DNA from: a virus
Virus record (IMG/VR): IMGVR_UViG_3300048550_000505
Coordinates: 1-36,213 of that record
DNA: 36,213 nucleotides
Direction: 5' to 3' (one strand)
Shown: positions 18,554 to 32,152 of the stretch, piece after piece
Layout of the letters: each line of letters opens with the position of its first letter
Numbering within the stretch: the first letter of the stretch is position 1
Notes under the pieces: generated by a model
The model's input: only the letters and a program-made list of their open reading frames with translations
Told to the model about the DNA's origin: nothing
Database searches by the model: none
Translations under genes and position numbers: made by a program

Positions 18554-18606
18554 GACGAGGGCTGGCTTTGGTCTAGTCTAGCCCTTCGTGCCAATCAAAA
18601 CCAACC

Positions 18607-18951
18607 TTGAAGTGCCCAGAGTGCGGGGGCAAGACCCGTATTACCAGCGTTAATAACAAAAGTCCCGAAGAGACACGCCGCTATCGCAAGTGCCCTGACT
18701 GCGATCACAACTTTGTGACCACACAGCCCCCAGACAAAAAGTCGCCAGAAGTCATTACAGACAGATTGCCGTGTTTACGCCTCAAAGGGGAAGAAAACCC
18801 CAACGCAAAGCTCACAGAAGCCAAAGTAATTGCAATGAGGAAGTACGCGGCCGAAGGCAACAGCTCTTTTGAATGCGGTCTTGTTTGGGACGTATCTCAA
18901 AAAGTGGCCTGGAACGCAATCGTTGGCAGGACGTGGAAGCACGTTAAGTAA
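18607..18951 (+). CDS. NrdR-type zinc ribbon fused to a helix-turn-helix
   Basis: From a TTG start the 114-residue product has a zinc ribbon (Cys3, Cys6, Cys29, Cys32: CPECGG and RKCPDCDHNF) very like the N-terminus of NrdR. The ATP-cone of NrdR is absent. Instead GEENPNAKLTEAKVIAMRKY and VAWNAIVGRTWKHVK form the helix-turn-helix that usually ends HNH endonucleases. It is therefore probably a DNA-binding regulator. It is the only plus-strand gene inside the late block, converging on the terminase gene with six bases between stops. Its leader has ACCAACC before the start and no Shine-Dalgarno, like the early genes. Confidence 0.65.
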   Translation: MKCPECGGKTRITSVNNKSPEETRRYRKCPDCDHNFVTTQPPDKKSPEVITDRLPCLRLKGEENPNAKLTEAKVIAMRKYAAEGNSSFECGLVWDVSQKVAWNAIVGRTWKHVK

Positions 18952-20307: not shown

Positions 20308-20691
20308 ATGTCTCAAGACGAACGCCGCTCCAATAACGCAAAAGAGGATCGTGTGCGGCGTTTATATCGTCGGCAACTTGAGGGGTTATCCGCAAGGGCA
20401 CTCGTTTATGAACACGCCGAGCGCGAACAAGTTAGCGATGCAACAGCTTGGCGCGATTGGGCTGAAGTAAAGCTTCTCGTTGATGAAGATTGGAAGTCTG
20501 ATCGCGAAAATATGCTGGCGCGTCTTCAGCACATGCGTACCAAACTATTTAATCAAGCGATCAAGAAGGGACAATTGCAAACTGCAAGCCAGGTGTTGGA
20601 TTCAATTGGACGTGTAATTGGTGAGTCCGTTGAAACCGTCAATATTCAGGCTCCTGATCTAACTATCAAGATTCAAGAGAAACAGGATTAG
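20308..20691 (+). CDS. Probable terminase small subunit
   Basis: From the ATG at 20308 the product has 127 residues. It has an N-terminal basic helical region, a helix-turn-helix (EHAEREQVSDATAWRDWAEV), and a C-terminal helical part (AIKKGQLQTASQVLDSIGRV) ending in a strand that could form an oligomer ring. This is the architecture of small terminases that recognise the packaging site. The large subunit gene is beside it on the other strand. A TTG at 20287 would add seven residues. It is followed by a terminator. A transcription regulator cannot be excluded. Confidence 0.6.
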   Translation: MSQDERRSNNAKEDRVRRLYRRQLEGLSARALVYEHAEREQVSDATAWRDWAEVKLLVDEDWKSDRENMLARLQHMRTKLFNQAIKKGQLQTASQVLDSIGRVIGESVETVNIQAPDLTIKIQEKQD

Positions 20692-20718
20692 CAACACCCT
20701 CCCCCCTCTCACTTATTT

Positions 20719-20743
20719 GCCTCTTCGCAAGAAGGGGCTTTTT
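20719..20743 (+). terminator. Terminator after the small terminase gene
   Basis: GCCTCTTC pairs with GAAGGGGC (8 pairs, one T-G) around a GCAA tetraloop, followed by TTTTT. It is 28 bases after the stop. Confidence 0.75.
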
Positions 20744-20886
20744 ATTGAGAATCAACAAAATGGCCAATATATATTCGGGGTGTGGGTATCAGTGTTCTGC
20801 GCGTGGGATCTGCAACCTCTCCCCCTGTGCCAGTCGCCAGCTGTCACTCACAGGCTTAACATTTCTTTTCGCTTTGGGTCTTCCAA
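20744..20886. other. Non-coding stretch before the first early promoter
   Basis: Together with the elements listed next, this makes a 315-base stretch without a gene (20744-21058). This part holds an AT-rich segment (CCAATATATATTCGG) and C/T-rich sequence, with no convincing promoter, hairpin or coding frame. A 65-codon frame crossing it begins inside the terminator and does not look like a gene. Confidence 0.5.
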
Positions 20887-20897
20887 ATGTGGCACAT
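20887..20897. promoter_or_regulatory. Operator-like palindrome ATGTG-G-CACAT
   Basis: A perfect 11-base inverted repeat sits just before the extended -10 at 20902. Its core TGTGGCACA is the reverse complement of TGTGCCACA found at two other early promoters (21531, 22556). A repressor or activator site is likely. Confidence 0.5.
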
Positions 20898-20901
20898 CCA
20901 A

Positions 20902-20910
20902 TGGTAGAAT
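20902..20910 (+). promoter_or_regulatory. Early promoter, extended -10 TGGTAGAAT
   Basis: TGG followed by TAGAAT fits an extended -10. No good -35 is present; the operator-like palindrome lies there instead, so an activator may replace it. The start would fall near 20917, right at the first stem of the structured leader. Confidence 0.5.
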
Positions 20911-20917
20911 CTAGGAA

Positions 20918-21025
20918 CTGAGAGTAAAAACACTTTTCTCGCTCTCAGCCCTTGCACAACTCGCAGCGTCACACCTGCATCCTGGCAGCCTAAACCCGTT
21001 TCGGAGAGCTCTCAGGCAGTGCAAG
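20918..21025 (+). promoter_or_regulatory. Structured leader with competing stems
   Basis: CTGAGAG (20918-20924) can pair with either of two copies of CTCTCAG (20942-20948 and 21009-21015). CTTGCAC (20951-20957) pairs with GTGCAAG (21019-21025). GAGAGCTCTC at 21004-21013 is a palindrome that could also bind the middle strand. The alternatives exclude each other, as in a riboswitch, thermosensor or protein-binding leader. It precedes a small membrane protein gene. It matches no riboswitch class I know. Confidence 0.5.
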
Positions 21026-21036
21026 AGAAAACCACT

Positions 21037-21048
21037 CCACAACCACAC
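21037..21048 (+). promoter_or_regulatory. A/C-rich leader box CCACAACCACAC
   Basis: The 12-mer lies 11 bases before the ATG at 21059, where a Shine-Dalgarno site would be expected but is absent. The same 12-mer occurs at 21535-21546. It is probably a single-stranded translation-start element. Confidence 0.5.
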
Positions 21049-21058
21049 GTAACCAGCA

Positions 21059-21262
21059 ATGCGAAACTTTTTTTTAACTCTCTCAGTCGCCACCATGGCT
21101 GTGTCTGCCGGTTGCCTCGGTTATGGCATCAGCCAGATGACTAACTTTGACAAGTCAACTAAGACCATCAGCAACAGCCAAGCCGTCAGTTTATTTTTTG
21201 GTGGTTTCGTTGGTGCTCACCTAGCGGTCGCACCTTTGATGGTTGCAGGTCGGATCGACTGA
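21059..21262 (+). CDS. Small protein with two membrane segments
   Basis: The 67-residue product has hydrophobic segments at about 3-22 (FFLTLSVATMAVSAGCLGYG) and 42-62 (VSLFFGGFVGAHLAVAPLMV), with a short polar link. It is not recognised. It is the first gene behind the early promoter at 20902 and its structured leader, so it is probably made early and tightly controlled. A role in the host membrane, such as blocking superinfection or altering transport, is possible but only a guess. Confidence 0.65.
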   Translation: MRNFFLTLSVATMAVSAGCLGYGISQMTNFDKSTKTISNSQAVSLFFGGFVGAHLAVAPLMVAGRID

Positions 21263-21270
21263 CTTATAGC

Positions 21271-21299
21271 AACCGCGCCAACATCATCGCTAACTACTT
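21271..21299 (+). promoter_or_regulatory. A/C-rich leader box before 21300
   Basis: AACCGCGCCAACATC precedes the ATG at 21300 and is close to the CCGCACCAAC box of the next genes. No Shine-Dalgarno site is present. Confidence 0.4.
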
Positions 21300-21491
21300 A
21301 TGAGATCAAGAACCATTGACCCGTCAACCTTTGATGCCCTATGTATCACCACTGGGTTATCAACTTTTCTTTTTTGTCTAACATTTATTGCTTGCATATT
21401 TGGAGCACAAAATGAAGAGGCAATGAAAAGATGCATGGCAAAGAATAGTCAACAGGCTGATCTTTGCATGTTGACAGTCTACGGAAGATGA
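21300..21491 (+). CDS. Small single-span membrane protein
   Basis: The 63-residue protein has one hydrophobic segment at about 14-36 (LCITTGLSTFLFCLTFIACI) and five cysteines. It is not recognised. It follows the previous membrane protein gene by 37 bases and is closed by a terminator 6 bases after its stop, so the two form one early transcript. It may act at the host inner membrane together with its neighbour. Confidence 0.6.
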   Translation: MRSRTIDPSTFDALCITTGLSTFLFCLTFIACIFGAQNEEAMKRCMAKNSQQADLCMLTVYGR

Positions 21492-21496
21492 CAGCA

Positions 21497-21521
21497 ACCC
21501 GGCGGATGCCGGGTCTTTTTT
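21497..21521 (+). terminator. Terminator after the first early unit
   Basis: ACCCGGC pairs with GCCGGGT around GGAT, then a run of T. The T-run merges with the next promoter, so the two units are packed end to end. Confidence 0.85.
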
Positions 21522-21522
21522 A

Positions 21523-21539
21523 TGGTACGATGTGCCACA
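21523..21539 (+). promoter_or_regulatory. Early promoter TGGTACGAT with overlapping operator TGTGCCACA
   Basis: An extended -10 (TGG TACGAT, 21523-21531) abuts TGTGCCACA (21531-21539). There is no -35 match. The operator would lie across the transcription start, so a bound protein would block the promoter. Confidence 0.5.
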
Positions 21540-21567
21540 ACCACACACAACCAACCGCACCAACACC
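21535..21567 (+). promoter_or_regulatory. A/C-rich leader with both boxes
   Basis: CCACAACCACAC (21535-21546) is followed by CCAACCGCACCAACACC up to the ATG at 21568. No Shine-Dalgarno site; only four T or G bases stand in the last 30 before the start. Confidence 0.55.
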
Positions 21568-21753
21568 ATGCCATTTCAATTCGATCAGCCTTACGAGTCT
21601 CAGAATCTCATGTCACAAGAGATCCGAGATGACTTTGCACAATTGGTAGAGGACTCCTGTGATCCTGATCGTATCCTAAGATCTCTCGCCGGTCATCTTC
21701 CCGCTAGTGACTTGGCTGAATTTATGGATGACTACGCTATGGGCCGGGTCTGA
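21568..21753 (+). CDS. Small acidic protein, unknown
   Basis: From the ATG at 21568 the product is 61 residues: MPFQFDQPYESQNLMSQEIR, then a helical acidic part (RILRSLAGHLPASDLAEFMD). It is soluble, with no motif I recognise. The start was placed behind the A/C-rich leader; the same frame opens earlier at 21532, inside the operator, which is unlikely. Small acidic early phage proteins often bind host enzymes, which is only a possibility here. Confidence 0.6.
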   Translation: MPFQFDQPYESQNLMSQEIRDDFAQLVEDSCDPDRILRSLAGHLPASDLAEFMDDYAMGRV

Positions 21754-21758
21754 CTCTC

Positions 21759-21786
21759 CCGCACCAACCAACCACACTTAACCACA
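21759..21786 (+). promoter_or_regulatory. A/C-rich leader CCGCACCAACC plus CAACCACAC
   Basis: Both leader boxes lie in the 33-base gap before the ATG at 21787 (CAACCACAC at 21769-21777). No promoter was seen, so the element seems to serve translation and not transcription. Confidence 0.55.
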
Positions 21787-22494
21787 ATGAAAAAACCTAA
21801 GGGATTCATCTTGCAAGAAGGGTTCTCACCGATTGATGGCCAGCCCTTTGTCGTTGTCTTAACGCTCGAGAGCAGCAACAGGAAAACCGGGAACATGGCT
21901 CAGGTCTGGATTCTCAGAGCTGACGTTGACCCAGTCACAGCAATAGCAACAGGACAAGACTTGTCAATCTGCGGAAACTGCGGACACAGGAAACAGGCTG
22001 ATGGTTCTCGGACCTGTTACGTCAACGCTGGCCAAGCTCCATTGGCAGTATGGAGAACCTACAAGAAGGGAGGCTACGAAACGGACTTAACTGTTTCCGA
22101 TGGCGAGCGTTACCTAAGCGGCAAAAAAATTAGGTGGGGAGCTTATGGAGATCCTGCCATCATCGACCCTGTGATTTTTCATGCTGTCAACGGTGCAGCA
22201 GCAGGCCATACAGGTTATACGCACCAATGGCGGGAACCCTTCGCACAGTGGGCCAAAGGTAGCTTGCAAGCTTCCTGTGATGGCTTAAGGGATTACCTGG
22301 AAGCTTCAAGCCATGGCTGGAAAACCTTCGCAGTGGTGCCTAAGGGGAGCAAGGGATTCTCAGGTCACAAGTGCCCTGCAACCGTTGAGGCATCCGAGGC
22401 ACAGTGTCAAACCTGTTCCTTATGTGATGGAGACAAAGAGGACATCTTTGTTGAGGTTCATGGGACAGGATCGAAACACTTCAAGCCACAATGA
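21787..22494 (+). CDS. Cys-rich phage protein, gp88/DUF7227-like
   Basis: The 235-residue protein has a conserved-looking core: KTGNMAQVWILRADVDP (33-49), a cysteine cluster ICGNCGHRKQADGSRTCYVN (61-80; Cys62, Cys65, Cys77), QAPLAVWR, RWGAYGDPAIIDP and GHTGYTHQW. More cysteines lie near the C-terminus (CQTCSLC). I recall this pattern from phage and plasmid proteins labelled gp88-like or DUF7227, whose role is unknown; the exact family name is uncertain. A metal or Fe-S site is likely. A terminator follows directly, so it ends a two-gene early unit. Confidence 0.65.
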   Translation: MKKPKGFILQEGFSPIDGQPFVVVLTLESSNRKTGNMAQVWILRADVDPVTAIATGQDLSICGNCGHRKQADGSRTCYVNAGQAPLAVWRTYKKGGYETDLTVSDGERYLSGKKIRWGAYGDPAIIDPVIFHAVNGAAAGHTGYTHQWREPFAQWAKGSLQASCDGLRDYLEASSHGWKTFAVVPKGSKGFSGHKCPATVEASEAQCQTCSLCDGDKEDIFVEVHGTGSKHFKPQ

Positions 22495-22499
22495 AAACC

Positions 22500-22523
22500 A
22501 AGCCCGTAAGGGCTTATTTTTTT
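22500..22523 (+). terminator. Terminator after the Cys-rich gene
   Basis: AAGCCC pairs with GGGCTT around GTAA, followed by A and seven T. It stands 5 bases after the stop. Confidence 0.8.
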
Positions 22524-22528
22524 GCCTG

Positions 22529-22564
22529 TTGACAGAAGCCTAAAATATCGGCTAATGTGCCACA
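22529..22564 (+). promoter_or_regulatory. Early promoter TTGACA-18-TAATGT with operator TGTGCCACA
   Basis: TTGACA (22529-22534) and TAATGT (22553-22558) are 18 bases apart. The operator-like TGTGCCACA (22556-22564) overlaps the -10. It is the best sigma-70 promoter in the early block and drives the run of small genes to 24485. Confidence 0.65.
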
Positions 22565-22579
22565 AGGGAGATCAGTCTT

Positions 22580-22604
22580 CCGCACCAACAACAACCACAA
22601 GCTT
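22580..22604 (+). promoter_or_regulatory. A/C-rich leader CCGCACCAACA
   Basis: CCGCACCAACAACAACCACAA precedes the ATG at 22605; there is no Shine-Dalgarno site at the right place, although GGGAG lies further upstream near 22567. Confidence 0.5.
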
Positions 22605-22811
22605 ATGGGCCAACCCGAACAACTATTCCACATCTGCCAATATACGGAGACACAAGGACACCAGGTGATTTATCACCTAATCGGTTCTCAGTATGAAGCA
22701 GATGATTGCTGTGATGACCTTAATTCAGCATTAGCCGATCGTGGCATACCAGGATCGGTCGCGTCATGGTACTCAACAGGCCCACATCTCCCCGCACCAC
22801 AAACAACCTAA
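22605..22811 (+). CDS. Small protein, unknown
   Basis: The 68-residue protein (MGQPEQLFHICQYTETQGHQ, then IYHLIGSQYEADDCCDDLNS) looks like a small alpha-beta fold. It is not recognised. The start is the ATG behind the A/C-rich leader; the frame also opens at a GTG inside the operator, which is unlikely. It shares TAATG with the next gene, suggesting coupled translation. Confidence 0.6.
   Translation: MGQPEQLFHICQYTETQGHQVIYHLIGSQYEADDCCDDLNSALADRGIPGSVASWYSTGPHLPAPQTT
22792..22810 (+). promoter_or_regulatory. A/C-rich leader CCGCACCACAAACAACC inside a gene end
   Basis: The box lies in the last codons of the previous gene and directly before the ATG at 22811, so the sequence is both coding and leader. 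Confidence 0.45.
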
Positions 22812-23020
22812 TGGATCACAACACAGACGACTTAATGCCTAGCGAATTGGGAGAATGGCCTCCTAGCGAAGCCGACATCCAGGCAATGTTTGAGGCAGGC
22901 GAAATTGACGCCTACGACCGCGAGAAGGCTTTGGATGAGCTAATCGCGCAAGAACTTTGGCGGGAGTCTTTGCCTTGTTCCGTGCCATCACCACAAGAAT
23001 TAAACCCAACTCTCAGATGA
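22811..23020 (+). CDS. Small acidic protein, unknown
   Basis: A 69-residue acidic protein: MDHNTDDLMPSELGEWPPSE, then ADIQAMFEAGEIDAYDREKA, LDELIAQELWRE. The second half is likely helical. No family is recognised. ATG overlaps the previous stop (TAATG) and its own stop overlaps the next start (ATGA). Confidence 0.6.
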   Translation: MDHNTDDLMPSELGEWPPSEADIQAMFEAGEIDAYDREKALDELIAQELWRESLPCSVPSPQELNPTLR

Positions 23021-23187
23021 AAGAACTCACAGCTGAATGGACAGGCGTCACGCTTCAGGACTTCATTGAACTGAACTCAGAAGACTTGTCTCATATCGAA
23101 GGTTTGCTAATGGAGGAATGCGCTTGCACTCCAAAAAGCGAAATCTTGCTAGCGAAGATTCGGATTCTTCAGCACTGCACCCATTAA
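23017..23187 (+). CDS. Small protein, unknown
   Basis: A 56-residue protein (MKELTAEWTGVTLQDFIELN, then SEDLSHIEGLLMEECACTPK) with CAC near the middle and a helical end. It is below the length limit of many gene finders but fits the ATGA overlap chain. Between its stop and the next gene lies a T-rich 32-base gap without hairpin. Confidence 0.55.
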   Translation: MKELTAEWTGVTLQDFIELNSEDLSHIEGLLMEECACTPKSEILLAKIRILQHCTH

Positions 23188-23219
23188 TTTTTTTTGTCCG
23201 GTTTTTCCAGTTTTTTCTG

Positions 23220-23585
23220 ATGTCAACTCAACTTGAGGTCAAAGCTCGCCATAGCTTTGCCCGATCCTTTCTTGAAAGGAATGCCAAGGTTCAAACAATC
23301 GCAACCATGATCTCAGCAAAGTATGGGGTGTCACGCACCACAGCCTATGAAGACATCAAAGCGGTTCATGCTGAGATACAGCTGAGTGATGACGGACCAA
23401 GCCTAGAAGAAGCCTCTGAGCCAATGGACACAGACACTGTCCTTGCGATGCTTCAGCACCGTTTGGAGGTGACTGTGGCCACTGGTGACGACAAAATGAC
23501 CTGTGGCCTAATCAAGGCCATAAACCAGGCCAAACAGTGGAATGGCTACGCACCACAAAGCACATCACCGACCACCTTCGTTTAA
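23220..23585 (+). CDS. Helix-turn-helix protein, second small-terminase-like
   Basis: The 121-residue product has an N-terminal HTH (MISAKYGVSRTTAYEDIKAV) and a helical C-terminal part (MLQHRLEVTVATGDDKMTCG, LIKAINQAKQWNGYAP). The layout resembles that of the small-terminase candidate at 20308: HTH, linker, then a helix pair that includes counts of related items. It could be the true small terminase, a paralogue, or a regulator of the early operators. The ATG at 23220 is used because the longer frame is unlikely to be coding. Confidence 0.6.
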   Translation: MSTQLEVKARHSFARSFLERNAKVQTIATMISAKYGVSRTTAYEDIKAVHAEIQLSDDGPSLEEASEPMDTDTVLAMLQHRLEVTVATGDDKMTCGLIKAINQAKQWNGYAPQSTSPTTFV

Positions 23586-23830
23586 TGAACATCAACACTC
23601 AATCCGGTGACTTCCTAATCGCAAGCTTGGGACGTTACACCAGCAAAACTGAGAAGATCATCTTCTTTAAAACTAGAGCTGGTTCTCTTGTTAGCAGTTA
23701 TTACATCAGCACCTTCAATTCAATTAAAGAGGGTGATGGCTTGATGCTGTCTAACGAATGGGGACGTGATCAAGTTCTTGATGCTGATCAAGTCGCTAAA
23801 TGTAAAACTTTTATTCGCAACCACTCATGA
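23585..23830 (+). CDS. Small protein, unknown
   Basis: The 81-residue protein (MNINTQSGDFLIASLGRYTS, then KTEKIIFFKTRAGSLVSSYY) is mainly beta-strand in pattern with a short helical end (DQVAKCKTFIRNH). No family is recognised. Its ATG shares TAATG with the HTH gene upstream and its stop overlaps the next ATG. Confidence 0.6.
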   Translation: MNINTQSGDFLIASLGRYTSKTEKIIFFKTRAGSLVSSYYISTFNSIKEGDGLMLSNEWGRDQVLDADQVAKCKTFIRNHS

Positions 23831-24033
23831 CTTACCACTACAAACCAGAACAAGAGTACGAATTAGACAAGCTTGAGAGGATCCTTAAAGAACTTCAGTC
23901 TGTTATTGAGCGTGAAAAGAAGCGCCATATGATGGATGAACACCTTTCACATTCAATGCGAGATCTTCTTGAATATGAGATTATTCCATTACTTGAAGCT
24001 GAAGTTTACTACGACCCAACACCACAGTATTGA
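23827..24033 (+). CDS. Small coiled-coil protein, unknown
   Basis: A 68-residue charged helical protein (YELDKLERILKELQSVIERE, KKRHMMDEHLSHSMRDLLEY) that probably forms a coiled-coil dimer. It starts with an ATGA overlap. No function is recognised. Confidence 0.6.
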   Translation: MTYHYKPEQEYELDKLERILKELQSVIEREKKRHMMDEHLSHSMRDLLEYEIIPLLEAEVYYDPTPQY

Positions 24034-24036
24034 TCA

Positions 24037-24324
24037 ATGAACAAAGAACTAATCTCACGCCAACAAGCCGACCGTGCCATCAATCAATTGGTGTCTGTCA
24101 TCGTTGGCAGGCAACAAGCAAAAGCCTCTAATCACCTTGAACAGTACATTCCTGAACGCTTAGAATTTATCATTAAATTAGTAAATCAAGAATACGACAA
24201 TGATAAAAAATCAAGTAGACCTGAAATAGTTGACGCTGCTAGAAATAGGTTCAATCGTAAATTTGACAGCATCCGATCGCTTCAGGTTTTATCTACTTTG
24301 ATCAAAGAGGTTGATTGGTCATGA
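24037..24324 (+). CDS. Small helical protein, unknown
   Basis: A 95-residue protein, strongly helical (ADRAINQLVSVIVGRQQAKA, RLEFIIKLVNQEYDNDKKS, RNRFNRKFDSIRSLQVLSTL). No motif recognised. It follows the previous gene by 3 bases and overlaps the next by ATGA. Confidence 0.6.
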   Translation: MNKELISRQQADRAINQLVSVIVGRQQAKASNHLEQYIPERLEFIIKLVNQEYDNDKKSSRPEIVDAARNRFNRKFDSIRSLQVLSTLIKEVDWS

Positions 24325-24485
24325 GTGGTGACATTAACTGGAACAATCGACCGCATGAAGTCATCGCAGCCGCTAAGTCCAGGGCGCTTGCGGCGCTCCA
24401 CCATAAACACAGCAAGGGGCTCACTGCCCTTGAACGTGCTTACCTTCATGCCCTAAAAACTGGCCGCCTTGATCTTGATGATTAA
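24321..24485 (+). CDS. Small basic protein, 54 residues
   Basis: MSGDINWNNRPHEVIAAAKS, then RALAALHHKHSKGLTALERA and YLHALKTGRLDLDD. It starts with an ATGA overlap, so it belongs to the early operon. Its stop TAA shares the TTAA at 24482-24485 with the stop of the converging minus-strand gene. The His/Lys-rich middle could bind nucleic acid. Not recognised. Confidence 0.55.
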   Translation: MSGDINWNNRPHEVIAAAKSRALAALHHKHSKGLTALERAYLHALKTGRLDLDD

Positions 24486-24664
24486 CACCAGGGCCAGCTA
24501 ACTTCTAACTCTTCCTCCCATGAATGGCCGTCTATCGGTCGTTCTTCAATGTAAGCAGTCAGCAAGCGTTTCATCTCTATGAATGGGATTTCTACCTCTG
24601 CGGCTGCTTTCGCCACATTCTTCTTCCCCCGATAACAAAGGTCTAACGCTTCTTCAAGTTTCAT
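24482..24664 (-). CDS. Small protein, HTH-like, after the exonuclease
   Basis: A 60-residue protein from the ATG at 24664 that overlaps the exonuclease stop (ATGA). The middle (KKNVAKAAAEVEIPFIEMKR) looks like a helix-turn-helix and might bind DNA; the end (SWEEELEVSWPWC) is acidic and aromatic. It is the last gene of this minus-strand unit and meets the plus-strand operon stop to stop. Confidence 0.55.
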   Translation of the reverse strand: MKLEEALDLCYRGKKNVAKAAAEVEIPFIEMKRLLTAYIEERPIDGHSWEEELEVSWPWC

Positions 24665-31897: not shown

Positions 31898-32152
31898 CTA
31901 AGTCCGATTTGCGTGGCCTTCCAGTCGCGCAACATTCTGCTCTAAGTCTGAGATTCGAGCGAATAGCTCCTGATCTCGAACCCTCAGATCAGCATGGAGT
32001 ACATCCATTCTTGACGCTAAATTATCGACAGCTGAAGTGAGCCGCACCAACGAATCCCTGCCGTCTTGGTTTTGGCGGTTTGCTCCCCGGACACCGCTAG
32101 CCGCTACGCCTATTGACGCACCAGCAACAGCAGCCCAGATTTCAACCACCAT
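31898..32152 (-). CDS. Small membrane protein with coiled coil
   Basis: The 84-residue protein has an N-terminal hydrophobic segment (EIWAAVAGASIGVAASGV) and a coiled-coil tail (LTSAVDNLASRMDVLHADLR, then FARISDLEQNVARLEGH). It could be a holin-associated or spanin-like protein in the lysis unit. It is divergent from the next gene with only 23 bases between start codons, so its promoter probably lies inside a gene. Confidence 0.6.
   Translation of the reverse strand: MVVEIWAAVAGASIGVAASGVRGANRQNQDGRDSLVRLTSAVDNLASRMDVLHADLRVRDQELFARISDLEQNVARLEGHANRT

Follow-up and report, generated by a model that had tools for sequence, protein, structure and literature searches.

Shine-Dalgarno-less early genes of a likely cyanophage carry A/C-rich leaders that may act as translation-start elements

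The early block and its leaders

The window, i.e., the whole stretch of DNA that was analysed, is an IMG/VR virus record of 36,213 bases with genes for terminase, tail proteins, primase-polymerase and exonuclease. Uncultured relatives of the virus are numerous. The 21 kb half that was searched for isolates at the DNA level (15000-36213) gave no match, and the closest isolate proteins are the terminase of cyanophage S-2L (43% identity) and the primase of Synechococcus phage S-CBS4 (26%). Because these are the nearest isolate proteins, the host is likely cyanobacterial, and the cyanophage assignment made by the sequence-only reading is plausible, its basis being weak similarity to proteins of these two phages. 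A terminase search for host assignment returned distant matches only, and no prophage turned up when 35 CsoS2-bearing genomes were searched for the tail protein. The features of interest are as follows.

18588..18606, + strand: short A/C leader of the zinc-ribbon gene 18607 (ACCAACC, TTG start)
21026..21058, + strand: A/C-rich leader of gene 21059 (67 aa), with CAACCACAC at 21040-21048; kept before homologues in L091, L085 and L123
21273..21299, + strand: weaker A/C leader of gene 21300, CCGCGCCAACATCATC
21497..21514, + strand: terminator hairpin and its T-run, ahead of the 21568 cassette
21523..21531, + strand: extended -10-like TGGTACGAT of a putative promoter; the leader starts at the putative transcription start just downstream
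21535..21567, + strand: A/C leader of gene 21568, both boxes present
21755..21786, + strand: A/C leader of gene 21787, containing both boxes, in an intercistronic position where no separate promoter was seen
22580..22604, + strand: A/C leader of gene 22605, CCGCACCAACAACAACCACAAGCTT
22781..22810, + strand: A/C leader of gene 22811, within the 3'-terminal part of gene 22605 (the two genes overlap in TAATG)
22988..23016, + strand: A/C-rich codons ahead of gene 23017, within the 3' end of gene 22811
23549..23584, + strand: A/C-rich codons ahead of gene 23585, CGCACCACAA...
24304..24311, + strand: true Shine-Dalgarno (SD) site AAAGAGGT before gene 24321, an internal control in the same operon with no A/C leader

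The sequence-only reading had proposed that A/C-rich leaders with shared boxes precede at least five consecutive starts (21059, 21568, 21787, 22605 and 22811). Leaders are indeed found at all five, with 71 to 91% A/C over the upstream 35 nt, but 21059 has only a CAACCACAC-type box and 22811 only CCGCACCACA. Nor are the genes strictly consecutive: gene 21300, between 21059 and 21568, has the weaker form, and the related box described there is CCGCACCAAC with one mismatch at 21273. Homologues of gene 21300 that lack the upstream 67-aa gene have full A/C leaders. The box said to lie inside coding sequence directly before an ATG is that of 22811, and the pattern runs on past the named genes, as the A/C-rich codons before 23017 and 23585. 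The ACCAACC leader of gene 18607 is present but short, and its gene starts with TTG; in the relative L077, a CPxC zinc-ribbon-like gene, likened to the 18607 gene without alignment, has a full A/C leader and an ATG. The zinc-ribbon protein itself (18607-18951) has an Ogr/NrdR-like N-terminus and a C-terminal part resembling a phage endonuclease family.

Exact copies of CCGCACCAAC lie at 21555, 21759 and 22580, and a copy with two mismatches at 22792; one further exact copy, at 32042, has no relation to a start. CAACCACAC is exact at 21040, 21538 and 21769, with the variant CAACCACAA at 22592. Its count in the window shows no excess over expectation, the unusual feature being its start-adjacent position. 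Counted over both strands of the 36 kb, eight stretches have at least 26/30 A/C, and four of them, in this block, end at an ORF start (expected fraction of A/C 30-mers doing so, 0.055; p=5e-4).

The absence of an SD site in place was confirmed at all five starts, where duplex energies range from +0.3 to +2.9 kcal/mol. A GGGAG upstream of 22605 is about 35 nt away and inside a small hairpin. In the close group of relatives, 0% of the genes with at least 27/35 A/C upstream have an SD below -4 kcal/mol. Gene 23220 has a leader of another kind, U/C-rich (TTTTTTTTGTCCGGTTTTTCCAGTTTTTTCTG, 23188-23219) with no good SD and pyrimidine-rich in several homologues, which is a second possible type of SD-less start.

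Composition, position and conservation in relatives

We profiled 141 distinct early-block leaders, which are not wholly independent of one another, their genomes being related. The share of G drops from about 25% to 9-11% at -30 to -1, with a sharp edge at -30, and is again low (10%) at +5 to +14. Genes with at least 27/35 A/C upstream make up 11.5% in the close group; among hosts, S-CBS phages and unrelated bacterial contigs the share is 0.4-0.7%. An ORF start marks the end of 40/75 A/C clusters in the close group (p=1e-29 against an expected fraction of 0.058), as compared with 2/34 in Synechococcus-type hosts, 0/11 in S-CBS1-4 and 10/108 in unrelated bacterial contigs. More distant relatives, as judged by terminase, show the same effect more weakly, and other phage lineages (L191/L199/L204, L388, L393) likewise carry several A/C leaders. 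The first of these, with L171, are mostly phage contigs of 63-65% GC that form a separate lineage, in which CCGCACCAACCACCAACCAACC-ATG stands ahead of an 880-aa primase/helicase-like gene and similar leaders occur elsewhere; their nearest isolate proteins are from Bordetella, Pseudomonas and Synechococcus phages. When viral contigs were scanned for exact patterns, the matches lay mainly in unrelated contigs, plus relatives, and a pattern scan of bacterial genome contigs gave apparent chance matches in unrelated bacteria.

Such leaders might in principle be a compositional accident, arising from strand skew or a host habit, and the + strand of the phage is slightly G-poor (22%). The controls refute this explanation, which we regard as extremely improbable: the phage set has 125 A/C-rich starts against 7 G/T-rich ones, and hosts and other cyanophages lack such leaders. 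Host genomes, sampled at about 60 genes each, have 0-1 genes that reach 28/35 A/C. A close motif variant was found in 7/291 cyanobacterial genomes, one occurrence each. A host-wide leader was ruled out by the host controls for the stretches sampled.

The box words are real. Of the 46 gene families that have A/C leaders, 6 contain CCGCACCAAC and 8 contain AACCACACCAA, compared with 0.04 and 0.15 in dinucleotide-preserving shuffles, and these families are non-homologous. Sharing of the boxes may come partly from descent of leaders from one another. Boxes stand 5 to 30 nt from the ATG, a variable spacing unlike that of an SD site. Some families have A/C leaders of other wording, such as (AAACC)n in L073; non-homologous A/C leaders without boxes precede other genes, and many members share composition alone.

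Conservation in relatives, one of the checks named by the sequence-only reading, came out in favour of the leaders. The 21787-type leader is kept in ten relatives (L082, L083, L085-L091 and L123), and the preceding gene differs or is missing in several of them. Six genomes, counting the window, share the upstream gene; among them, pairwise identity is 0.80 in the leader, with gaps counted as mismatches, versus 0.68 at third positions of the gene; none of the 11 substitutions in the leader alignment is to G. In L084 and L092 the 21787 homologue has no leader and begins a few nucleotides past the upstream stop.

Where leaders overlap the preceding gene, synonymous sites are biased. In the last 11 codons at the junctions 22605->22811, 22811->23017, 23220->23585 and 23827->24037, third-position A/C is 0.77, 0.81, 0.76 and 0.70, whereas amino-acid-matched codons elsewhere in these genes give 0.53-0.57 (0.81 against 0.53 for 22811->23017). 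The pooled p-values count related tails as independent, and when one median tail is taken per junction, 22811->23017 alone reaches significance (p=0.01). The bias is absent at 24037->24321, where the SD site AAAGAGGT is present (0.39), and not significant at 23585->23827 (0.60). Furthermore, the 22605-type tail of L086 is frameshifted (QVHTQPHHTTN versus TGPHSTAPQTN in L091), and the leader nucleotides are almost unchanged. The simplest reading of these comparisons is that selection at the overlaps acts on nucleotides rather than on protein. Taken as a whole, the sequence data indicate that a leader of about 30 bases is kept by selection in related viruses.

From transcription context to a candidate translation-start element

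A consensus sigma-70 promoter scan gave results not above chance, and because of this we infer promoters only from the conserved TGGTACGAT-type boxes, which recur with small changes in L082, L085, L086, L088 and L091. Considering the terminator hairpin and the conserved box before it, the leader of 21568 would form nearly the whole putative 5' UTR. The setting is different elsewhere, being an intercistronic spacer at 21787 and coding sequence at 22811. The sole constant is the stretch of about 30 nt before the ATG, which argues for a role in translation, not transcription. Upstream of 21059 (20880-21058), a TGGTAGAAT box and about 100 nt with possible hairpin repeats (CTGAGAG...CTCTCAG and GGCAGTGC) stand before the leader; parts recur in relatives (CTCTCARGCARTGCA).

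We consider the leaders to be SD-independent translation-start elements, with a probability of about 0.7. This part of the sequence-only reading is the best supported one, by position, strand, the edge at -30, the lack of SD sites, the synonymous bias and conservation. Its description as a defined element needs qualification, as the spacing is flexible rather than a set register and the element is not host-wide. According to this proposal, about 30 nt upstream and about 10 nt into the gene would be kept nearly free of G, with U low upstream, so that the start region would stay single-stranded and present A/C-rich RNA to the 30S subunit. The boxes (CCGCACCAAC and AACCACAC/AACCACACCAAC) would be preferred words inside the leader without fixed spacing. 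The leader would then be a portable ribosome-binding module, which could make up the entire 5' UTR downstream of a promoter (21568), act as an intercistronic spacer (21787) or be written into the synonymous codons that end the previous gene (22811, 23017 and 23585). It would drive translation, presumably through recognition by S1 or by some other 30S component. Against this stand several observations: the known ACA enhancers were shown upstream of an SD site, which these starts lack; the L084 and L092 homologues do without a leader; and 23585->23827 lacks a significant bias.

Mean folding energy of the start region is -3.3 kcal/mol for genes with A/C leaders versus -9.7 kcal/mol for other genes. 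Composition alone accounts for this low structure, so that the boxes call for a different explanation; duplicated leaders of common descent may be the answer. An Rfam search over 20600-24600 gave no family match up to E=1. Pairing of the leaders with a region of 16S rRNA other than the anti-SD could in principle explain the boxes, and CACCAAC has a 7-nt complement near position 225 of the host 16S rRNA. The longest match to host 16S rRNA, however, averages 7.6 nt in leaders and 7.5 nt in shuffled sequences, and the full boxes have no complement there. Such pairing is not supported and appears very unlikely.

The boxes may possibly be recognition sites of a dedicated factor. In one version, the leaders would define an SD-free class of early starts, read by a phage protein or through modified use of host S1 and thereby separated from SD-bearing late and host mRNAs; this elaboration is speculative and rather improbable. 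In another, the boxes would be sites of a phage or host regulator of early genes that binds RNA or DNA, the A/C richness being part of the site. Their excess over shuffles in non-homologous families, the predominance of early-region genes, and the promoter-like and terminator-like sequences beside some leaders are consistent with a regulator. We nevertheless hold this version unlikely, given that the distance to the ATG ranges from 5 to 30 nt, the sites are non-palindromic and also occur in intergenic and coding sequence where no promoter was seen, many members have no boxes, and no candidate protein was identified.

The slot between the 21568 and 21787 leaders (21535-21790) is variable. The window, L086, L087 and L091 have a gene of 61 aa there, L082 has one of 99 aa and L089 one of 52 aa; in L085 and L088 the slot is empty. 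The junctions fall inside the leaders, within CCGCACCAAC in L088 and within AAC(CACA) in L085. These observations would fit leaders that are recombination linkers for the gain, loss or swap of small genes, their position at starts following from the movement of leader-plus-gene cassettes. Recombination linkers, however, would need neither G depletion with an edge at -30, nor its continuation to +14, nor the synonymous A/C bias, and non-homologous leaders without boxes stand before other genes. As the primary function this is doubtful; the leaders probably do contribute to gene exchange, but as a side effect.

Relation to known systems

SD-less translation start is an open question in bacteria and especially in cyanobacteria. 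Dozens of homologous and non-homologous A/C leaders, an SD control in the same operon and the apparent selection on synonymous codons mean that small reporters can test it. If the translation-start reading holds, the leader could give cyanobacterial engineering a compact expression part that needs no SD site. Mutsuda and Sugiura reportedly described, in 2006, S1-dependent, SD-independent initiation on cyanobacterial rbcS mRNA; set beside the leaders by the title of that work, it would share an SD-less start in a cyanobacterium and differ in concerning a host gene. Our literature search, which covered few subscription journals, found no description of A/C-rich, SD-less phage leaders. Cyanophages S-SSM6a and S-SSM6b have been reported to follow host SD usage (PMC6847405), unlike the lineage of the window, which departs from it at these early genes.

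The early block of S-2L (MW334946) resembles that of the window in having consecutive small genes, several of them with G-poor, C/A-rich leaders (CCACCGCTCC..CCACC-ATG). In contrast to the window, S-2L has 69% GC, its leaders are C-rich rather than A/C-rich, there is no common box, and the two are related via terminase only (43% identity). On the minus strand of S-2L (L354, 1-7900), a promoter-like box of the GTGCTTTAATAG type recurs at several early genes, and a hairpin-like repeat with a C/A-rich leader often comes after it.

In Salmonella and E. coli, the CA-rich ACA motifs of yifK, dppA and gltI, which are GcvB targets, are position-flexible translation enhancers; those studied in yifK and dppA adjoin an SD site and are silenced by the sRNA GcvB (PMC3879156). 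The phage leaders likewise have a CA-rich stretch near the start at a flexible position. The likeness to enhancers is one of analogy, since the leaders have no downstream SD, reach the ATG and recur over the early block. The SAS/ESAS sequences of cluster K mycobacteriophages are repeated, non-palindromic, mostly in one orientation and rare in the host, and lie beside the starts (mostly ATG) of non-structural genes; the SAS is a 13-bp GGGATAGGAGCCC-type sequence whose AGGAG is complementary to 16S rRNA, 3-7 bp from the start (PMC3203893). The phage leaders are also repeated and asymmetric, share one orientation and adjoin non-structural starts, but they lack an SD core, are about 30 nt long with a spacing of 5-30 nt, and are defined mainly by composition. 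By the features tested, the leaders are a member of neither system; they resemble the ACA enhancers in composition and SAS in layout.
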